Of a stretch of 64,000 nt of DNA, positions 7,916-30,252 are shown one piece after another. Source of the DNA: Heliorestis convoluta (lineage in GTDB: Bacteria; Bacillota; Desulfitobacteriia; Heliobacteriales; Heliobacteriaceae); contig NZ_CP045875.1 in the NCBI RefSeq assembly GCF_009649955.1, positions 434,001 to 498,000 on the forward strand, read 5' to 3'. Position 1 is the first letter of the stretch, and the number at the start of each line of letters is the position of its first letter. Position numbers and translations under genes: made by a program. The notes under the pieces were generated by a model. It did no database searches. It was not told the DNA's origin and saw only the letters and a list, made by a program, of their open reading frames with translations.

Positions 7916-10186
7916 ATGGCAGTAGATGAACGGGGAAAGAATCGGAGTCCTGTGGATCATGCAAGCACCGTAGATAGTGCAGATAAGATAGAAGAAACCA
8001 AAAAAGCTGAAGAGATTTTGGAGAAGTATGATAGCGGCAGTGCTTTTCGAAAAAACATTCCTTTTTATTGGAAGTGGGTTATTGGCGGTGGCGCCAGTAT
8101 TTTGAGTCTTTTTCATCTATATACGGCTATTTTTGGCACTTTGCCGAGCAATCAGCAGCGAGGATTTCATTTGGCCATTGCATTGGGTCTTGTTTTTTTG
8201 CTTTTTCCGGCCAATAAGAAAAATGAAGGTTTGGCGGAGGAATCTTCCCATACCTTTTGGGATGGCTTTATAGCTAGGATGAAAACGGTACCTGTAAGCA
8301 GTTGGGTACTTTTTGGGATCCTTCTTCTCTGTACAGGTTATGCTTATTGGAATGAATTGGTTCGTCCGACGACGGTGCTCGTAATGGCGGCGTTGCTTGT
8401 TCTTTTTCAAGTGGCTAAGTTGTATGGGCGTCGTTATCAGGGAATTCCTTTTCCCGATGTAATCTTGGCAATTCTAGGTCTTGGTGTAGGCCTTTATCAT
8501 TTTTTTGAGTATCAAGGGATTATTGCTCGTGTGGGCATTTATAACGATCTTGATTTTATGGTGGCCGGTGCTGCTGTGTTGCTTGTTCTAGAAGCGGCGC
8601 GGCGTGTTGTTGGAATGCCTATTGTGGTGGTCGCTGCATTGTTGCTTTTGTATGCCCACTTAGGTGCTTATATTCCCGGCTACTTTTCTCATCGCGGCTT
8701 TAGTGTGGAGCGGATTATTTCTCATTCTTTTTTGAGTTTGGAAGGTATTTTGGGGATTCCGATTTCGATTTCTGCTACTTTTATTTATCTTTTTATTATG
8801 TTTGGCGTGATTTTGCAGAAGACGGGGTTGGAGAAGTTTTTTACGAACTTGGCGCTTTCTTTGACGGGTTGGATGACAGGTGGAACGGCCAAGGTGGGTG
8901 TTTTAACGAGCCTTTTTTCAGGGACGATTACAGGTAGTTCCGTGGCCAATACGGTGAGCAATGGCGCTTTTACAATTCCTATGATGAAGCGCTCCGGTTA
9001 TAAGCCGGAGTTTGCAGCTGGTGTTGAATCGGCCTCTTCTACGGGGGGACAGATTATGCCTCCCATTATGGGTTCGGCTGCTTTTTTGATGATTGAGTTT
9101 ACGGGGTTGGCGTATAGTGAAATTATTAAGGCTGCTTTGATTCCGGCTTTGCTTTTTTTTATGGGTCAGTTTATTTATGTGCATTATGAGTCAAAGCGGC
9201 TGGGGATTATGGGCGTGCCGCGCAGTGAGTTGCCCAATCTGAAAGATCTTTTGTTGCGCAAAGGCTATTTGTTGTTGCCGATTGTAGCGATTATTGTAAT
9301 TCTTTCGATGGGCCAGTCGGCGATGAAAGCGGCTCTTTATGGAATTTATACGGCGCTGGCGATGAGTGTACTTGCGTTGATTTTGGCTTGGATTTTAGGG
9401 AAGCGCGATCAGTTGGATCATCCTTTTTCTTTTTCCATGCTTTGGGATATTCTTGTTACATCGGCTCGCACTGCTTTGCCTGTGATTATTGCTTGTGCGG
9501 CGGCAGGTATTATTGTGGGTGTGATTACGCTGACGGGCTTAGGCTTGCGCATTGCCGGTGGCATTCTTGAGCTGGCCATGAATCAGCTTTTGTTGACGCT
9601 CTTTTTCACGATGATTGCAAGTATTGTTCTGGGCATGGGTTTGCCCACGACTGCCAATTATGTGATTACGGCGACGATGGCGGCGCCTGCCCTTTTGGCT
9701 TTTGACAATGTACCGCTGGTAGCAGCCCATCTTTTTGTTTTCTACTTTGGAATTGTAGCCGATATTACGCCGCCGGTGGCTCTGGCTGCTTATGCCGGAT
9801 CGGGGCTGGCCAATAGCAATCCTTTTAAGACGAGTATTCAAGCGGTGAAAATTGCGATTGGTGCTTTTTTGATTCCTTATATGTTTGTACTTTCGCCGCA
9901 GTTGTTGTTGGGCGAGGCGCCTCTGTATTTGGTCGCTTTTTCGGTGACAACGGCAACGCTGGGAATGTTTTGCATTGCTACGGCTCTGGTGGGTTATATT
10001 GAGAAGCCTTTGCATTGGAGTGAGCGTTTGCTGTTGACGTTGGCTGGTTTGAGCCTTGTGTATGCGCACTTGGTGACGGATATTTTGGGCGTGGCTATTT
10101 TCTTGGCGATTTATGTTCATCAGAAGATGAGCGGCCGTAAAGGTAAGAAAGATCAAGGAACAGATGTGCCGCCTGTAGGGGTGTAA
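7916..10186 (+). CDS. TRAP transporter fused permease (4TM + 12TM)
   Basis: A 756-aa polytopic membrane protein combining the small (DctQ-like) and large (DctM-like) TRAP subunits in one chain, as is usual for TAXI systems. The large-subunit part shows the conserved GTITGSSVANTVSNGAFTIP and GGQIMPPIMG segments (about residues 345-395) and the second inverted-topology repeat near MGLPTTANYVI (about 585). It imports the ligand delivered by the receptor, driven by a sodium or proton gradient. ATG 7916 is preceded by GAGGGGTG; the first roughly 45 residues are hydrophilic and cytoplasmic. Codons end mostly in T or G. Confidence 0.93.
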   Translation: MAVDERGKNRSPVDHASTVDSADKIEETKKAEEILEKYDSGSAFRKNIPFYWKWVIGGGASILSLFHLYTAIFGTLPSNQQRGFHLAIALGLVFLLFPANKKNEGLAEESSHTFWDGFIARMKTVPVSSWVLFGILLLCTGYAYWNELVRPTTVLVMAALLVLFQVAKLYGRRYQGIPFPDVILAILGLGVGLYHFFEYQGIIARVGIYNDLDFMVAGAAVLLVLEAARRVVGMPIVVVAALLLLYAHLGAYIPGYFSHRGFSVERIISHSFLSLEGILGIPISISATFIYLFIMFGVILQKTGLEKFFTNLALSLTGWMTGGTAKVGVLTSLFSGTITGSSVANTVSNGAFTIPMMKRSGYKPEFAAGVESASSTGGQIMPPIMGSAAFLMIEFTGLAYSEIIKAALIPALLFFMGQFIYVHYESKRLGIMGVPRSELPNLKDLLLRKGYLLLPIVAIIVILSMGQSAMKAALYGIYTALAMSVLALILAWILGKRDQLDHPFSFSMLWDILVTSARTALPVIIACAAAGIIVGVITLTGLGLRIAGGILELAMNQLLLTLFFTMIASIVLGMGLPTTANYVITATMAAPALLAFDNVPLVAAHLFVFYFGIVADITPPVALAAYAGSGLANSNPFKTSIQAVKIAIGAFLIPYMFVLSPQLLLGEAPLYLVAFSVTTATLGMFCIATALVGYIEKPLHWSERLLLTLAGLSLVYAHLVTDILGVAIFLAIYVHQKMSGRKGKKDQGTDVPPVGV

Positions 10187-10201
10187 GTGACACAGGTTCA
10201 A

Positions 10202-10278
10202 TGGGACTGAGTAAGGATTTAGTGGGACTGGATGACGATTTAGTGACACTCGGTGACGATTTAGTAACACTCGGGAGC
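10202..10278 (+). repeat. 21-bp tandem repeat array
   Basis: Three consecutive 21-bp units (starting 10202, 10223 and 10244) end in GATTTAG, followed by a partial fourth beginning TAACACTCGGG. Units diverge from TGGGACTG to TGACACTCGG at their 5' ends. The array lies just after the permease stop. A similar single unit (TTTTAGTGACACTGGGAGGACGG-like) occurs near 26350. No function is evident. Confidence 0.7.
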
Positions 10279-10403
10279 GGTTCTGGTGCCTTAGAAAATG
10301 ACAAAAAAAGGACCCTTTCCTGCCCCCCTCCCTGTGTTATTACATACTTTTTTGGTGGCTGTAAAAGCTAAGGGTAGGTGTGCACTTGAGAGGAGGATGG
10401 CTT

Positions 10404-10466
10404 ATGAGTCAGCGTCCTGTTATGTCTGTTCGGGCTGCCTTGGAGCGATCTGATAAGGAAGGATGA
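10404..10466 (+). CDS. Possible 20-aa leader peptide upstream of the nitroreductase
   Basis: A short frame beginning ATG and encoding MSQRPVMSVRAALERSDKEG. It has a strong ribosome binding site (GAGGAGG, 7 nt spacing) and ends 7 bp before the nitroreductase start. Translation could help ribosomes reload on the next gene, whose own binding site (GGAAGG) lies inside this frame. No homology is recognised and it may be chance. Confidence 0.35.
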   Translation: MSQRPVMSVRAALERSDKEG

Positions 10467-10473
10467 TGGGTTG

Positions 10474-11034
10474 ATGAATGATACGCTGAAGACGATTTTT
10501 AATAGACGGAGTGTTCGAACTTTTAAGCCGGAGCAGATTGAGAATCAGGCTTTAGATAGTATTGTTTCTGCTGGTCAGTATGCGCCGAGTGGCATGAACC
10601 ATCAGCCTTGGCATTTTACGGTGGTGCAGAATCGGGAACTTTTGGCGGATATTAATACGCTTTGTAAGGCTGTTTATATGCAGTGGGACAATCCGGCTTT
10701 GCAGGAGCGAGTGAAGGCGGAGAATTTTAGTGCTTTTTATCATGCGCCTACGTTGATTGTTGTTTCTGGCGATGCTACTTCTTTGACGCCCCAGTTTGAT
10801 TGTGCGCTGGCTTTGGGTACTATGTTTTTGGCGGCTGCTTCATTAGGAATTGGTTCTTGTTGGATTCATGCGTTACAGTCTTTTCATGATCTGGCAGAAG
10901 GGCCGGCTATGATGAAAAAGTTGCAGGTGCCGGAGGGGTATCGGATTTTTGGTTCTGGCGCTTTTGGTTATAGTGCCCAAGAGTTGCCTTTGCCGAAGCC
11001 TCGTAAGGAGGGGGCTGTGACGATTTTGCGGTAA
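10474..11034 (+). CDS. Nitroreductase-family flavoprotein
   Basis: A 186-aa FMN-dependent oxidoreductase. The N-terminal RRSVRTF motif (about residues 10-16) and YAPSGMNHQPWHF (about 34-46) bind the FMN phosphate in this family, and ALGTMFLAAASLGIGSCWIH (about 110-129) is the conserved central helix. Family members reduce nitro compounds, quinones or flavins with NAD(P)H; the physiological substrate is unknown. Start at ATG 10474 rather than the TTG one codon earlier. It is monocistronic apart from the possible leader peptide, and ends at a strong bidirectional terminator shared with purC. Confidence 0.9.
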   Translation: MNDTLKTIFNRRSVRTFKPEQIENQALDSIVSAGQYAPSGMNHQPWHFTVVQNRELLADINTLCKAVYMQWDNPALQERVKAENFSAFYHAPTLIVVSGDATSLTPQFDCALALGTMFLAAASLGIGSCWIHALQSFHDLAEGPAMMKKLQVPEGYRIFGSGAFGYSAQELPLPKPRKEGAVTILR

Positions 11035-11099: not shown

Positions 11100-11780
11100 T
11101 TAGGCCATCATTTGTTTTTCGAGTTCTAGTGGTTCGATGTATTCGCCATTTTTATAGGCGCGCATGTTGCCGCCGGAGATTTCGTCGATGAGGACGATTT
11201 GGCCGTCTTCTACTCTGCCAAATTCGAATTTGATGTCGTAGAGGTCGATGTCTTTTTTGGCCAGTTCTTCTTTGACCACGTTGGCGATTTGTTGGGTTAG
11301 GTTTTTGAGGACTTTGTATTCTTCGTGGGAGAGGATGCCGAGCATGGCCAGACCGTCTTCGTTAATGGGGGGATCTTGGCGGGCATCGTCTTTAAGGGTT
11401 ACTTCTACGAAAGCATCGAGGGGTTGGCCTTCTTCTGCGTAGCGACCGTAGCGGCGCAAGAAGCTGCCGACGGCGCGATAGCGGCAGATGACTTCGAGGC
11501 CTTGACCGAAGACGGTGGCTGGCTTTACGGTCATGGTGGCTTCTTCTATGTTGGCATCGATGTAATGAGTGGGGATGCCTTTTTCTTTAAGTACTTCAAA
11601 AAAGAATTTGGTTAGACGAAGTCCCGCTCGACCGGCGCCTTCGATGGTGAGTCCAACGGTGTTGGCACCAGGGTCAAAGACTCCGTTTTCGCCGGTTACG
11701 TCGTCTTTGAAGGTGAGCAGGTAGTTGCCGTCTTCGAGTTCGTAGACGTCTTTTGTTTTTCCGGTGTAGACTAGGTTCAT
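11100..11780 (-). CDS. purC: Phosphoribosylaminoimidazole-succinocarboxamide synthase
   Basis: A 226-aa SAICAR synthetase that joins aspartate to CAIR with ATP in de novo purine synthesis. Recognisable family segments are YTGKTKDVYEL near the N-terminus, VICRYRAVGSFLRRYG (about residues 92-107), and the ATP-site stretch LIDEISGGNMR near the C-terminus. Length matches the bacterial short form. It stands alone here rather than within a pur operon. Its codons end mostly in C or A, opposite to the neighbouring + strand genes, so the + strand stays G+T-rich across the gene. ATG 11780 is preceded by AAAGGAA. Confidence 0.96.
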   Translation of the reverse strand: MNLVYTGKTKDVYELEDGNYLLTFKDDVTGENGVFDPGANTVGLTIEGAGRAGLRLTKFFFEVLKEKGIPTHYIDANIEEATMTVKPATVFGQGLEVICRYRAVGSFLRRYGRYAEEGQPLDAFVEVTLKDDARQDPPINEDGLAMLGILSHEEYKVLKNLTQQIANVVKEELAKKDIDLYDIKFEFGRVEDGQIVLIDEISGGNMRAYKNGEYIEPLELEKQMMA

Positions 11781-26402: not shown

Positions 26403-26869
26403 ATAGTACGAAAATAGCTACTTTGTGGTAGGGTCAGGCGTTATGAATTCCTTCCGAACGGACTCATCCCACGCCATAAGCGGCAGCAAGCTGCCGATGG
26501 CTGAGGTCTGAAGTCCTCTCTCCAGGAAGTCATAACGCCTGACCCAGATACATCTTGCTGGTTGTGACTGCGTTTTGGCCTATTGCAAATACAATAGCCA
26601 GTTGCGTATACATAGCAAGCAAATAGTTACGCAAAGCAATGCCAACGGGAGTAACAATCAGCAAAAACTCTCTAGGACTGGGCATCACGCTTTCCGCAGC
26701 GGGACTTGGGACCTCAGCTGTCGCCAGCTTGCTGGCGGTAACAGCGTGGGACCAGTCCAGAGCGGAGGAAAGCGTGATGACCAGGCCCCTCTATGAAGTA
26801 ACCCCAACATAATCAGGAAAAGTTATTTTCATCAGTGGTTGTGCCCGGACGGGCATGGGGGGTTCGTAT
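26403..26869 (+). repeat. Double-hairpin repeat element, copy 4
   Basis: Border AGTACGAAAATAG, hairpin A at 26431-26545, hairpin B at 26673-26789, 3' border with TTTTCATC and TGCCC-GGAC-GGGCA. The central linker is nearly identical to copy 2. It fills most of the space between the two-helix protein and the accessory operon, and its 3' end marks the beginning of a G+T-rich + strand tract. Confidence 0.88.
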
Positions 26870-26953: not shown

Positions 26954-27451
26954 TTACAGCTTGTCCCAGTCTAGTGTGTCTTCGTTGCTCTCTTCGTAGA
27001 GTTCTTTTGCTGCTTCTAAAAAGGACATGATTTTTTTCTTGCTGAACCAAGGGTGGTTGATCTGGTAGGGTCTGCTGTTATATTTGCTGTAGATGTGGAT
27101 GGTGATGTCGTCATCGTCGCTGTCGTCGTATTCAATGAAGTCGATGTCTTCGTACAGGATCATGAAGGTGGAGTCTCTGTTTTCTAGGGCGCTGCAGTAT
27201 AGGGCTTTGTCTGTGAAGGCGAAGCCGGCTTTTCCTTTGTTAGAGAGGGATGTGTCTAAGAGTCCGATGATGTCGGAGCTGGAGACTTGTCCTTTGCAGA
27301 TTTTTTCCCGTCCGTTGGAGGCTACGGTGCTTGGAAGTTGGCGATCGTAGGCTGTGTGGGCCATGCCAGCTCGTAGGATGATGCCTTGGCGGCATGTTTC
27401 CATGAATCGTTGGCTGAGTTTTTCTTTTCGTTCTTGCGATGTTCTTTGCAC
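26954..27451 (-). CDS. PH-like domain protein of the accessory operon
   Basis: A 165-aa soluble protein. The central part (SNKGKAGFAFTDKALYC, then ILYEDIDFIEYDD) has the strand pattern of bacterial pleckstrin-homology-like domains in which a 'fire-up' strand is followed by a Tyr/Ile-rich strand and an acidic turn. The C-terminus is a helix with LEAAKELYEES. GTG 27451 is preceded by AAGGAG. It is the last gene of a minus-strand cluster with the glycine-rich proteins at 27503-30252. Function unknown; domain naming is by eye. Confidence 0.65.
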   Translation of the reverse strand: MQRTSQERKEKLSQRFMETCRQGIILRAGMAHTAYDRQLPSTVASNGREKICKGQVSSSDIIGLLDTSLSNKGKAGFAFTDKALYCSALENRDSTFMILYEDIDFIEYDDSDDDDITIHIYSKYNSRPYQINHPWFSKKKIMSFLEAAKELYEESNEDTLDWDKL

Positions 27452-27502
27452 AGTTTTTTGCTCCTTTTGGCTTATGTTGTGTTGATGGTGGGCGGCTTTG
27501 AT

Positions 27503-28120
27503 TTATTGCGCGTTCAGCATTTTTATGTATTGATTGCCTTGTTCTAAGACTTGGTTTGTTGCTTCGTCAAGTTCTCCGTTTTCTCTAAGTAAGGATGTGT
27601 CTAAGATTGATTTGATGAGTAGGGCCAGTTGGACGCATTGGTAGATGTTTTCTTGTTCTTTTTGGCTGTAGTTGTTCCAGTCTTGGCCTTTTGTTGCGAC
27701 TGTTTCTTTCATTTTGGCTACGTGAGGGATGAGGTAGCGGTCTAGTTTTTGGAGGAGTTGGGTGATTTGGTTGGCCCGGGTGTAGATGCTTTTTAGGGCG
27801 ATGGCAATGTTGCGGGCTTGGGCTTTGAAGGCTTTGGCTTTGTCCTGGTTGCTGTAGGCGTCGTTGAGGGCTTTTTTGGATTGGCTGGAAAGGATGGCGC
27901 CGCCGACTGCGAGGGCTGGTCCTACGACGAGTCCGCCAAGGACGGCCATGCCGCCTGCCATGCCCAGGCCGCCGGCACTTAAGGCGCCTCCACCGAGCCA
28001 GGCTAGTGTGGCTTTGGTGGCGGCGGCTCCCGATAGGGTGCCTAGGGCTGTTTTGGTGGTGGCTGTTACGATAAGACCGCCTAGGCCTGTTTTGACGACG
28101 CTGTAGGTTCCAAAGGCCAA
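27503..28120 (-). CDS. Glycine-rich membrane-active-like protein, downstream part (frameshifted)
   Basis: A 205-aa product with a long Gly/Ala-rich hydrophobic region (LSGAAATKATLAWLGGG, GGMAVLGGLVVGPALAVGG, about residues 28-77) that looks like glycine-zipper membrane helices, then an amphipathic helical domain. In related single-chain proteins this block directly follows a short helical N-terminal domain like the one encoded at 28135-28536. Here the two are in different frames, and reading upstream of the TTG start continues as VGSGALL, matching the family layout. So this is probably the 3' part of one gene broken by a single-base frameshift. Function unknown. Confidence 0.65.
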   Translation of the reverse strand: MAFGTYSVVKTGLGGLIVTATTKTALGTLSGAAATKATLAWLGGGALSAGGLGMAGGMAVLGGLVVGPALAVGGAILSSQSKKALNDAYSNQDKAKAFKAQARNIAIALKSIYTRANQITQLLQKLDRYLIPHVAKMKETVATKGQDWNNYSQKEQENIYQCVQLALLIKSILDTSLLRENGELDEATNQVLEQGNQYIKMLNAQ

Positions 28121-28134
28121 TAGGGCGCCGGAGC

Positions 28135-28536
28135 CTACGGAGCGAGGCCGTTGATAGCGATTTCTTTGGCTTGATAGGTTGCTTCTTGTAATTGTTTGAA
28201 ACTTTCACTGGAGGGATCGAAGTTTCTGAGTTCGTCGATGCCGGCGCTGTTTTTGGGGTTTATGTTTTTGATTTGGGAGTAGGTTGTTACGAAGTCGTCG
28301 ATGGAGGTGGTGAGTAAGCGGATTTTTTCTTGTCCTAGTTCTTCGATGGCGCCGCGTGTTTTTTCTTTGGCTAGTTCGATGAAGGCTTCTGCTTCTTGGG
28401 CTATGTTCTGGGCTCGTTCGTTGATGTTTTGGGCTTCGTTCATGTTCTTTTTGGCGTCGATGCCGTCTTTGATGCCTTTGGCGGCGGCTACGGCGGCAAT
28501 ACCTCCTAAGATGACGGGGATTAGGGGAAATGGCAT
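28135..28536 (-). CDS. Glycine-rich protein, upstream part (frameshifted)
   Basis: A 133-aa N-terminal piece: a hydrophobic start (LIPVILGGIAAVAAAKGIKD) and a long charged coiled helix (NEAQNINERAQNIAQEAEAF onward, to about residue 75), then a helical region ending at a TAG stop after AINGLAP. The next frame continues without delay as VGSGALLAFGTYS, so I read this as the first third of a roughly 360-aa protein interrupted by a frameshift. ATG 28536, preceded by GAAGGG, begins the conserved part; ATG 28554 is possible. Confidence 0.65.
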   Translation of the reverse strand: MPFPLIPVILGGIAAVAAAKGIKDGIDAKKNMNEAQNINERAQNIAQEAEAFIELAKEKTRGAIEELGQEKIRLLTTSIDDFVTTYSQIKNINPKNSAGIDELRNFDPSSESFKQLQEATYQAKEIAINGLAP

Positions 28537-28584
28537 GGGGATCCCTTCTTTCATTCTTATAGTAGGAAAGCAATGGGACAGTGC

Positions 28585-30252
28585 TTAAAAGTCTAGGGCT
28601 TTGCTTTTGTCTTGCATGAAGTTGTCAAAGTCGTTGAAGTTTTTGAATTGTAGGGTTTGTCCCATTTCTAGGGCAATTTTGTTCAGACCTAGGGTGAATT
28701 GGTCGAGGTTGGCGCTTTCGATGGCTTCGTCGATGATGGTGAAGGATTCTTGGAAGAGGGCTTGGCGGTTTTGGTAGAATTGGTTAATCTGTTTGTTGAG
28801 TTCTTGCCCTTGTTGGGTCATTGATTCGATGGCGGCTGTGGCGATGGCGTGGATTTTTTGGCGGCGCTGGGCTGATAGTTTTTCTTCTTGTAGGATTTGC
28901 AGGGAGGCGCTGTAGAGCATAGAGCTGGTCATGTAGCCGACCATGGCACCGACGGTTGTGCCGATACCAGGTAGAATAACGGTGCCGATGGCGGCGCCCC
29001 AGCTGGCGGCCATCATGCCGGTTCCTTTTTCGCCTAGTTCTTCGGCCAGTTGGAGGGCGTTGATTTCGCCGTTGGCGTAGCGGTAGAGGGATTTGCCGAC
29101 TTGCACGGTGGCGGTGGCGATCATGGCGGGTAGGTTTGTTCGTGATAGGTTGACGAAGACACTTCTGCCGCTGGAGGCCATGAGGCCGCGTATGGCTGTG
29201 TCACTAGCACCGATGATATAGGCTGTTCCGCTGCCGGCGGCTGTGTCGATGGCTACGTCTTTGAGTGCGTGCTTGATCTCTTTTTCTCCTCTTAGGACGC
29301 AGACGACGTTGCGGGAGGTGGAGATGGCCGAGGAGATAACGGCACCGGCTTTTGCTTGTTCGAGGCCTGATTGGTGGGCTGTTTTTGCTACATATTTGAA
29401 AGTGGCTAGTTTGGGGTGTTCTCGTAGGAACATCGCTTCTTGGGAGGAAATGCCGCTGTCGGTAATGTCTTCGGCCACTTGTTGGTATTTTTGGGCTTCT
29501 TTTTCTAGGTGTTGGGCTTTTTCTAGATGGCCTTGTTGGCGAAGGTGCTGGGCTTGTCTTTGTAGGTTTTGGGCTTCTGCTTGTGCTGCTTTCTGGGCGA
29601 GTTCGTATTGCTCTGAAGGGACAAGGACTTTGTTGCCTCGGTATTTATCCCATTTTTTACTGGTTAGTTTTTTGACGAGGCCTTGGGCACTTTTTTCGAT
29701 CTCTTCTTGGCTTTCGTATCGACCGATGAATTTCATTTGGGCGCTCCAGAGGGGTTCATTCTGTTGGAGTATGGGGTTGCCTTCTTGATCTACGGCGAGA
29801 ATATCGTAGAGGCTGTGGTTGCCGAGGCCGACGTCGTTGGAGCGGCTGAAACGCTGGTCTTGTTGGTTGATGATGCTTTCGGCGTTTTTTTGGTTGACGT
29901 AGTGAATTTCTGCGGAAAAGCCGGCTTGTTGTTTTAGGTTTTGGTATTGATAGTCGGGGTGGACTTTGGATTGGGAGACTTGTTTGAGCCCTTTTTGAAG
30001 GATTTCGCCGGTTTCAGTGACGTTGCCTTGATAGCCTTTTATGTATTCGGCGGCGGCGTGGCCGAAGCGTTGTACATTTTCTGTTGTGGTGGCGCCGATG
30101 AGGGTGTCAGTGAGGTGGTTGGGGGGGTTAGGGGCCTTAGAGACGTTAGAGGCGTTGGCGGTAGGTTGGGATTTTTGTTTTTTGGGGCTGCTTGGGGTGT
30201 TTTTTTGATTGTGTTGGTGAAGTTGTTGGGACTTCTTTTTTTCTATAGACAT
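28585..30252 (-). CDS. Large glycine-zipper protein of the accessory operon
   Basis: A 555-aa protein, first gene of the cluster. The N-terminal 50 residues are a low-complexity Lys/Gln/Pro/Ser tail. Then comes a soluble domain (TENVQRFGHAAAEYIKGYQG, then QNLKQQAGFSAE) and a Gln/Ala-rich coiled-coil hairpin (about residues 215-265). A hydrophobic core follows, with Gly/Ala segments (GSGTAYIIGASDTAIRGLM; GTVILPGIGTTVGAMVGYM, about 345-435), and then a C-terminal helical domain. I know similar proteins as uncharacterised, widely scattered families. The glycine zippers suggest membrane insertion. ATG 30252 follows AGGTG. Coding-strand codons are rich in C and A. Confidence 0.7.
   Translation of the reverse strand: MSIEKKKSQQLHQHNQKNTPSSPKKQKSQPTANASNVSKAPNPPNHLTDTLIGATTTENVQRFGHAAAEYIKGYQGNVTETGEILQKGLKQVSQSKVHPDYQYQNLKQQAGFSAEIHYVNQKNAESIINQQDQRFSRSNDVGLGNHSLYDILAVDQEGNPILQQNEPLWSAQMKFIGRYESQEEIEKSAQGLVKKLTSKKWDKYRGNKVLVPSEQYELAQKAAQAEAQNLQRQAQHLRQQGHLEKAQHLEKEAQKYQQVAEDITDSGISSQEAMFLREHPKLATFKYVAKTAHQSGLEQAKAGAVISSAISTSRNVVCVLRGEKEIKHALKDVAIDTAAGSGTAYIIGASDTAIRGLMASSGRSVFVNLSRTNLPAMIATATVQVGKSLYRYANGEINALQLAEELGEKGTGMMAASWGAAIGTVILPGIGTTVGAMVGYMTSSMLYSASLQILQEEKLSAQRRQKIHAIATAAIESMTQQGQELNKQINQFYQNRQALFQESFTIIDEAIESANLDQFTLGLNKIALEMGQTLQFKNFNDFDNFMQDKSKALDF

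Follow-up and report, generated by a model that had tools for sequence, protein, structure and literature searches.

Several described or proposed defence systems share features with the locus treated here. PDC-M09, a candidate system in PADLOC-DB 2.0, consists of two adjacent genes, PDC-M09A and PDC-M09B. Bunzi consists of BnzA and BnzB, and TerB stands among the Bunzi domains in a table of PMC10952713. In Juk, a range of effectors is brought by JukA to the site of infection or infection vesicle, and for JukB, one of these effectors, tetrameric pores have been reported (PMC13282480). SNIPE is a nuclease bound to the membrane; it cuts the DNA of phages while this is being injected, and some of its homologues include PH domains (PMC13190303). 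Here, we compare these systems with a three-gene operon of Heliorestis convoluta, which occupies positions 26954-30252 of a 64,000-nucleotide stretch (the window; RefSeq assembly GCF_009649955.1, contig NZ_CP045875.1, positions 434,001 to 498,000). All positions below are those of the window unless a locus is named.

We have called the genes A, B and C, in the order in which they follow each other on the minus strand in the list of open reading frames (ORFs). On balance, A and B probably form the core of a membrane-linked anti-phage nuclease system with exchangeable sensors, a reading drawn by analogy with SNIPE and Juk. A preliminary description of the window had recognised three adjacent genes on one strand, a coiled-coil hairpin in the first and a split in the middle one, and all of this stands: the hairpin is predicted with high confidence, and the two parts of the middle gene belong to one protein. 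The operon and its parts are as follows.

28585..30252, minus strand: gene A, 555 amino acids (ORF list)
29569..30003, minus strand: PD-(D/E)XK-like domain, A residues 84-228 (AlphaFold2, pLDDT 92.5; structural neighbours mostly PD-(D/E)XK nucleases, scores all weak)
29731..29910, minus strand: stretch with the putative catalytic residues E115, D150 and Q172-x-K174 of A (invariant in 76/76 aligned homologues)
29467..29616, minus strand: coiled-coil hairpin, A residues 213-262 (AlphaFold2)
28861..29382, minus strand: Gly/Ala-rich helices, A residues 291-464, presumed membrane-associated (AlphaFold2; weak Tim17/22/23-type likeness)
28135..28554, minus strand: gene B, N-terminal half, 139 amino acids, hydrophobic segment at residues 4-29 (ORF list, alignment, hydropathy)
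28135..28145, minus strand: frame change splitting B (blastx frames join at about 28141; B is a single ORF at other loci)
27503..28120, minus strand: gene B, C-terminal half, 205 amino acids, Gly-rich hydrophobic segment, PDC-M09A match (PADLOC 6.5e-23, alignment, hydropathy)
26954..27451, minus strand: gene C, 165 amino acids, relative of the BnzA N-terminal region (PADLOC; relatives fused to a CxxCxxCC domain or zinc ribbons)

By sequence, the nearest named relative of the A-B pair is PDC-M09, as B matches PDC-M09A (at 2.6e-22 for an intact homologue in PADLOC, besides the C-terminal half listed above) and an A-like neighbour of a core PDC-M09A gene proves to be PDC-M09B (6.8e-178). A-like proteins of the PD type (locus L020) and of the HNH type (L018) both match PDC-M09B. 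For A itself, the homology is indirect: the L020 protein, a PDC-M09B, matches the A profile at 1e-63, while no PDC-M09B profile matches window A up to an E of 1, and A is not recognised as a member. A core PDC-M09A protein (G175) scores 1.5e-104, far above window B, and the clade of window A has partners of its own (TerB-like, CxxCxxCC, PH/BnzA-like, JukA and WYL proteins). A-B is best described as a variant of the candidate PDC-M09 kind with a new mechanistic assignment, of which we found no description in open-access papers.

The resemblance to the other systems is partial. C matches residues 38-145 of BnzA (PADLOC, 3.5e-9), which is what supports the PH-like label given to it in the preliminary description, as neither Pfam nor PDB profile searches confirmed a PH fold. 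One related locus (L068) encodes a complete BnzA homologue three genes past B; BnzB, in contrast, was matched by no scanned protein, A and B match no Bunzi model, and the combination of a full BnzA with BnzB that identifies Bunzi is absent from the window operon, where C covers the N-terminal region of BnzA only. JukA homologues occur near B in five related loci, whereas the window operon is without JukA and its A and B match no JukB model (PADLOC, sequence models only). SNIPE shares the proposed logic, i.e., a membrane-held nuclease cutting phage DNA at injection, but it is one protein with a GIY-YIG nuclease and DUF4041, neither of which has a Pfam match in the four window ORFs, whereas A is PD-(D/E)XK-like and paired with B. 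B also matches LeoBC of Eleos (LeoBC/LeoB), weakly (PADLOC, 4e-4), but the dynamin-like GTPase was not seen in the window operon. Regulators of the WYL type often accompany defence systems (PMC9122601). A role in defence, one of several possibilities raised in the preliminary description, is supported by association only, namely by the matches to PDC-M09, by the BnzA-like C and by JukA and WYL neighbours at related loci.

Protein A is predicted to consist of a nuclease-like N-terminal domain, the hairpin (helices 213-239 and 243-262, pLDDT ~94-98 in AlphaFold2) and a Gly/Ala-rich helical C-terminal domain. In the AlphaFold2 model of the N-terminal domain, which was also folded alone, helix 99-128 holds E115 and is followed by strand 134-137, by strand 151-154 with D150 immediately before it, by strand 170-173, which holds Q172 and has K174 right behind, and then by helix 182-197 and strand 208-211. 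E115, D150, Q172, K174 and Y204 do not vary in any of the 76 aligned homologues, and the residues that mark PD-(D/E)XK nucleases, E, D and (E/Q)xK in the first helix, the second strand and the third strand, are found in this order in the model. Judged from model and alignment, the fold order and invariant residues are those of a PD-(D/E)XK nuclease of the E...D...QxK kind, which occurs in Mrr-type enzymes. The assignment of a nuclease-like domain to A, predicted as it is, is new here, as is its exchange for an HNH nuclease in some relatives (below), and A may have nuclease activity. The alignment comprises the window protein, 74 of the 78 loci described below (L058, L082, L096 and L099 were left out) and L101. 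The 78-locus genome scan selected for the motif N..QQAGF, and the invariance of N105-F112 is therefore not evidence; none of the four putative catalytic residues falls within the peptide patterns of that scan, while L101 was taken from a different one, able to select QMKF too.

Structure searches with the domain point, weakly, in the same direction by the kind of protein found. The best Foldseek matches in the PDB are Holliday-junction resolvases (E 0.9 or worse); among the six best matches in the viral Foldseek search, the five that are named are all nucleases or PD-(D/E)XK/VRR-NUC proteins (E 0.12 or worse); and 18 of the top 21 rows of the VIA search are PD-(D/E)XK nucleases (influenza PA, BsaWI, Hjc, AgeI and others, Z <5), some enzymes appearing repeatedly. 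The superfamily labels of these rows are our own, presumed from their titles. Neither A as a whole nor C has a Pfam match, and in the PDB neither sequence nor profile searches gave a convincing relative for A, its N-terminal domain, B (best match the coiled-coil protein PDCD10, 0.001) or C (none by profile).

The strongest argument that the N-terminal position of A is that of a nuclease is that one nuclease fold is swapped for another while the remainder of the pair is preserved. Beside some B genes stands a protein of which the A profile matches the later part only, with another domain at the N-terminus. In L022/L178, this is the HNH nuclease domain GmrSD_C of Pfam (8.9e-8; 32.6 bits against a cut-off of 23), which replaces the A domain in front of the same C-terminal domain, and B adjoins. 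L018/L180 and L019/L179 show by eye a similar D-H-I motif in a domain that has no Pfam match. The HNH-type loci are L018, L019 and L022, the first two being near-identical and from one genus; most A loci carry the PD-(D/E)XK-like type. Other proteins, L173 and L174, retain E-D-QxK on a very different sequence. By eye, the full motif is present in the distant A-like proteins of L008, L016, L017, L020, L173, L174 and a second copy in L023; L010 and L015 differ at Q, and L185 (the gene of L014) is cut before E. Matches of the Antd HMM were not used, as it was built from distant rows that it later finds.

Two of these distant proteins stand in settings of their own. In L023, the second A-like protein with E-D-QxK (9350-10876) lies ~3.8 kb downstream of the A-B-C set. 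In L008 (8723-13272), on Ruminococcus albus plasmid pRUMAL01, the full-motif A homologue stands behind a gene for a HerA-like ATPase, and B was not found at that locus; the nuclease-like A may therefore work in another system too.

The pairing of A with B was scanned with one genome per species, which yielded 78 A loci. B lies behind A on the same strand in 76 of them, and in the two others the contig stops 297 and 750 bases past A. The gap between A and B is at most 120 bp in 35 loci and exceeds 400 bp in 41, in each of which (41/41) it is occupied by a TerB-like gene. Representatives of these gap genes score 6e-5 and 3.6e-4 against Pfam TerB, under the cut-off, while a TerB-like gene downstream in L186 passes it (4.3e-6); the L040-type gap gene has no Pfam match and is TerB-like by position and general likeness only, and TerB-like models built from the gap genes themselves are circular. 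Where enough sequence was available, a WYL regulator was found upstream of A in 26 of 71 loci, and downstream a CxxCxxCC gene in 32 of 56 and a PH/BnzA-like gene in 10 of 56. JukA stands beside A-B in 5 of the 78 loci (L049, L058, L059, L039 and L066), either behind B or behind the CxxCxxCC gene that follows B. The supposition that all three types of gene travel together in unrelated bacteria holds for A and B and only in part for C. In L099, the A ORF is extended and also matches the C model, which is dominated by CxxCxxCC proteins.

In the HNH-type locus L178, a 4Fe-4S protein (8988-10001; Fer4_15, 1.8e-9) stands behind B, in the place taken by CxxCxxCC proteins at other loci. These systems may have a redox or iron cue in common.

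In a tree of 81 A proteins, of which 76 rows have a named phylum (11 phyla), the state changes number 11 for TerB-like, 13 for WYL, 10 for CxxCxxCC, 3 for JukA and 3 for PH neighbours; the phylum label changes 17 times, as compared to 43 for shuffles. The partner counts used all 78 loci. Neighbourhood clustering, in contrast, left out the window copies (L001, L002, L009), duplicates (L003, L006, L021, L012, L013) and distant or short loci (L004, L005, L008, L010, L014-L020, L022, L098, L101), and lost L056 and L079, where the greedy gene call missed the anchor. PADLOC matches among flanking proteins (136 of 329, with the mad, PD-T4-6 and MkoA families listed) had no control set and were not used as evidence.

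B is one gene of ~344 amino acids, cut in two by a clean frame change. Both pieces align to a single intact protein of 339 amino acids from Azospirillum ramasamyi, which adjoins an A homologue there, and each half is 72% identical to an Anoxybacillus protein (blastx). In blastx comparisons with four intact B proteins, the window frames join at about 28141; three of the subjects continue there without interruption (residues 132 and 133), and in the fourth (L024) the two pieces overlap. A slippery heptamer that would indicate programmed frameshifting was not seen at the break, by eye and with no further test. The split is either a recent mutation, in which case this copy is defective, or an assembly or sequencing error; barring the latter, the A-B system is probably impaired in this genome, because B is split. 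Hydropathy places two hydrophobic segments in B, at 4-29 of the N-terminal half and 52-79 of the C-terminal half, and B is likely membrane-bound, as its sequence suggests.

We propose that A combines a nuclease domain of PD-(D/E)XK type with the hairpin and the Gly/Ala-rich helical domain, and that the latter, together with the hydrophobic, Gly-rich B, would keep the nuclease inactive, or confined in space, at the inner membrane; A may be kept there by B and by its own helices. Exchangeable partners would serve as sensors, either of infection at the membrane or of redox state or iron, the candidates being TerB-like, CxxCxxCC or 4Fe-4S and PH/BnzA-like proteins (C in the window) and the infection sensor JukA. 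Upon injection of phage DNA, the nuclease would cut it at the membrane. If this is true, a pair of genes present in at least 11 phyla, represented in the window by proteins without a Pfam family, would become a testable class of entry-stage immunity, with candidate catalytic residues named and the natural nuclease swap as a built-in control, and TerB-like, PH/BnzA-like and JukA proteins would share a role as sensors plugged into a membrane-bound cutting core. A wider version is tentative and somewhat doubtful: A-B as a widespread membrane-tethered core in which nuclease and sensor are both plug-ins, cutting at the injection site, with Bunzi, Juk and PDC-M09 belonging to one membrane-surveillance architecture.

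A number of observations weigh against the proposed core. Not one structural match of the A domain reaches significance, and Pfam has no convincing nuclease family for it, one member scoring only 0.056 with RE_Bsp6I. By hydropathy, a single segment of A, at 420-438, just attains the usual membrane threshold (1.68). PDC-M09 is itself a candidate system only, and its name was not found in open-access papers. Of 299 genomes, 20 gave matches to the PDC-M09A profile. An E below ~1e-14 is reached at 11 places (a count by eye), and at 7 of these the ±1.5-kb locus includes a good A-like ORF; L172, L175 and L176 have B-like genes without a visible A-like ORF, even in wider stretches, and L171 has a partial one only (wider stretch). 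Most loci are chromosomal; A is on three plasmid records and on none of the phage records.

Among viral contigs, the single protein found no A relative and the alignment one, and the Cedecea operon, used as query, had no match in the E. coli genomes.

The viral contig of L101 (4838-10058) carries a WYL-A-TerB-like set after tail-type and integrase-like ORFs (named by eye), the integrase-like ones being two overlapping frames; this order suggests a cargo site at a prophage edge and speaks for the proposed anti-phage core.

The preliminary description had read the Gly/Ala zippers as a sign of controlled membrane insertion, as in pore-formers. In an explanation of this sort, A-B would be a membrane-depolarising or pore-forming abortive-infection pair, its Gly/Ala helices inserting upon activation and the N-terminal domain of A serving only as a sensor that binds nucleic acid or a phage protein. 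The Gly/Ala-rich helical domains of both proteins, the weak likeness of B to LeoBC and the occurrence of JukA beside A-B, taken with the pores reported for JukB (PMC13282480), speak for it. The zippers themselves are weaker than had been thought: of 2000 composition-preserving shuffles, 90 score equally high for A and 177 for the C-terminal half of B, so that the motifs, near chance for the composition, mostly reflect Gly/Ala content. Membrane segments are apparent by hydropathy in B and marginal in A, whose helices 291-464 have a weak likeness to Tim17/22/23-type bundles (Z up to 7.5). Furthermore, four invariant putative catalytic residues and the replacement of the whole domain by an HNH nuclease domain in relatives would be needless in a mere sensor, and the pore-forming reading, which misses this nuclease-like domain, is unlikely and not the best fit. 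A structure search with full-length A was dominated by helices (best Z 7.5, with complex I B14.7-type and TIM22/TIM23 subunits); it was set aside as within the chance range for helical bundles.

Alternatively, the operon might deal with stress (envelope, metal or redox) and not with phages, in which case the nuclease-like domain would act on DNA or RNA that has been damaged. In favour of this, TerB-like and CxxCxxCC/4Fe-4S proteins are common partners; set against it, the distribution is patchy, with no A in a same-genus genome, the neighbours (BnzA, JukA, WYL) and the PDC-M09 homology are of the defence type, and the spread over many phyla comes with many changes of partner, and we consider a stress role improbable. 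For a housekeeping role, too, the distribution is too patchy to make it likely (a four-row profile found A in 9 of the 299 genomes from the phylum, own genome counted). A polymorphic toxin or contact-dependent competition module, to which the exchange of nuclease domains on a conserved C-terminal part bears some resemblance, is highly improbable, since the variable domain is the N-terminal one, and a secretion or delivery module and a constant immunity gene were unseen in the inspected loci (an impression, with no dedicated search); the competition role once suggested found no support. The membrane-linked nuclease core with exchangeable sensors remains our preferred reading.

The copy in H. 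convoluta, whose genome is a single contig of 3.22 Mb, looks recently acquired, which fits with its distinct codon use, the absence of A from the same-genus genome and its sparse occurrence in relatives (4 of 150 with a single-protein query, own genome counted). Cytosine at third codon positions amounts to 0.51-0.52 in the operon genes, whereas 38 further window ORFs average 0.20 (sd 0.07), in agreement with the compositionally distinct tract noticed earlier. On one side, the operon is bordered by a small membrane-protein ORF, and on the other by what we take to be a galE-like gene. Genes of both flanks are present in the same-genus genome on two different contigs; comparison with that genome showed no clean empty site, as the site coincides with a breakpoint. 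Elsewhere in the window, an ORF at 11100-11780 (minus strand), presumably SAICAR-synthase-like (purC), has a third-position C of 0.53, like the operon and unlike other window ORFs.

A further element adjoins the operon as a neighbour, not a member.

26404..26864, no strand assigned: dispersed repeat, ~460 bp, directly downstream of the operon (genome copies)

The repeat has no Rfam match. Its mobile look, remarked upon in the preliminary description, is borne out by ~40 near-full copies in its own genome, with 87-95% identity and internal inverted similarity; the same-genus genome has no more than short pieces of it, and a single piece occurs in a different genus of the family.

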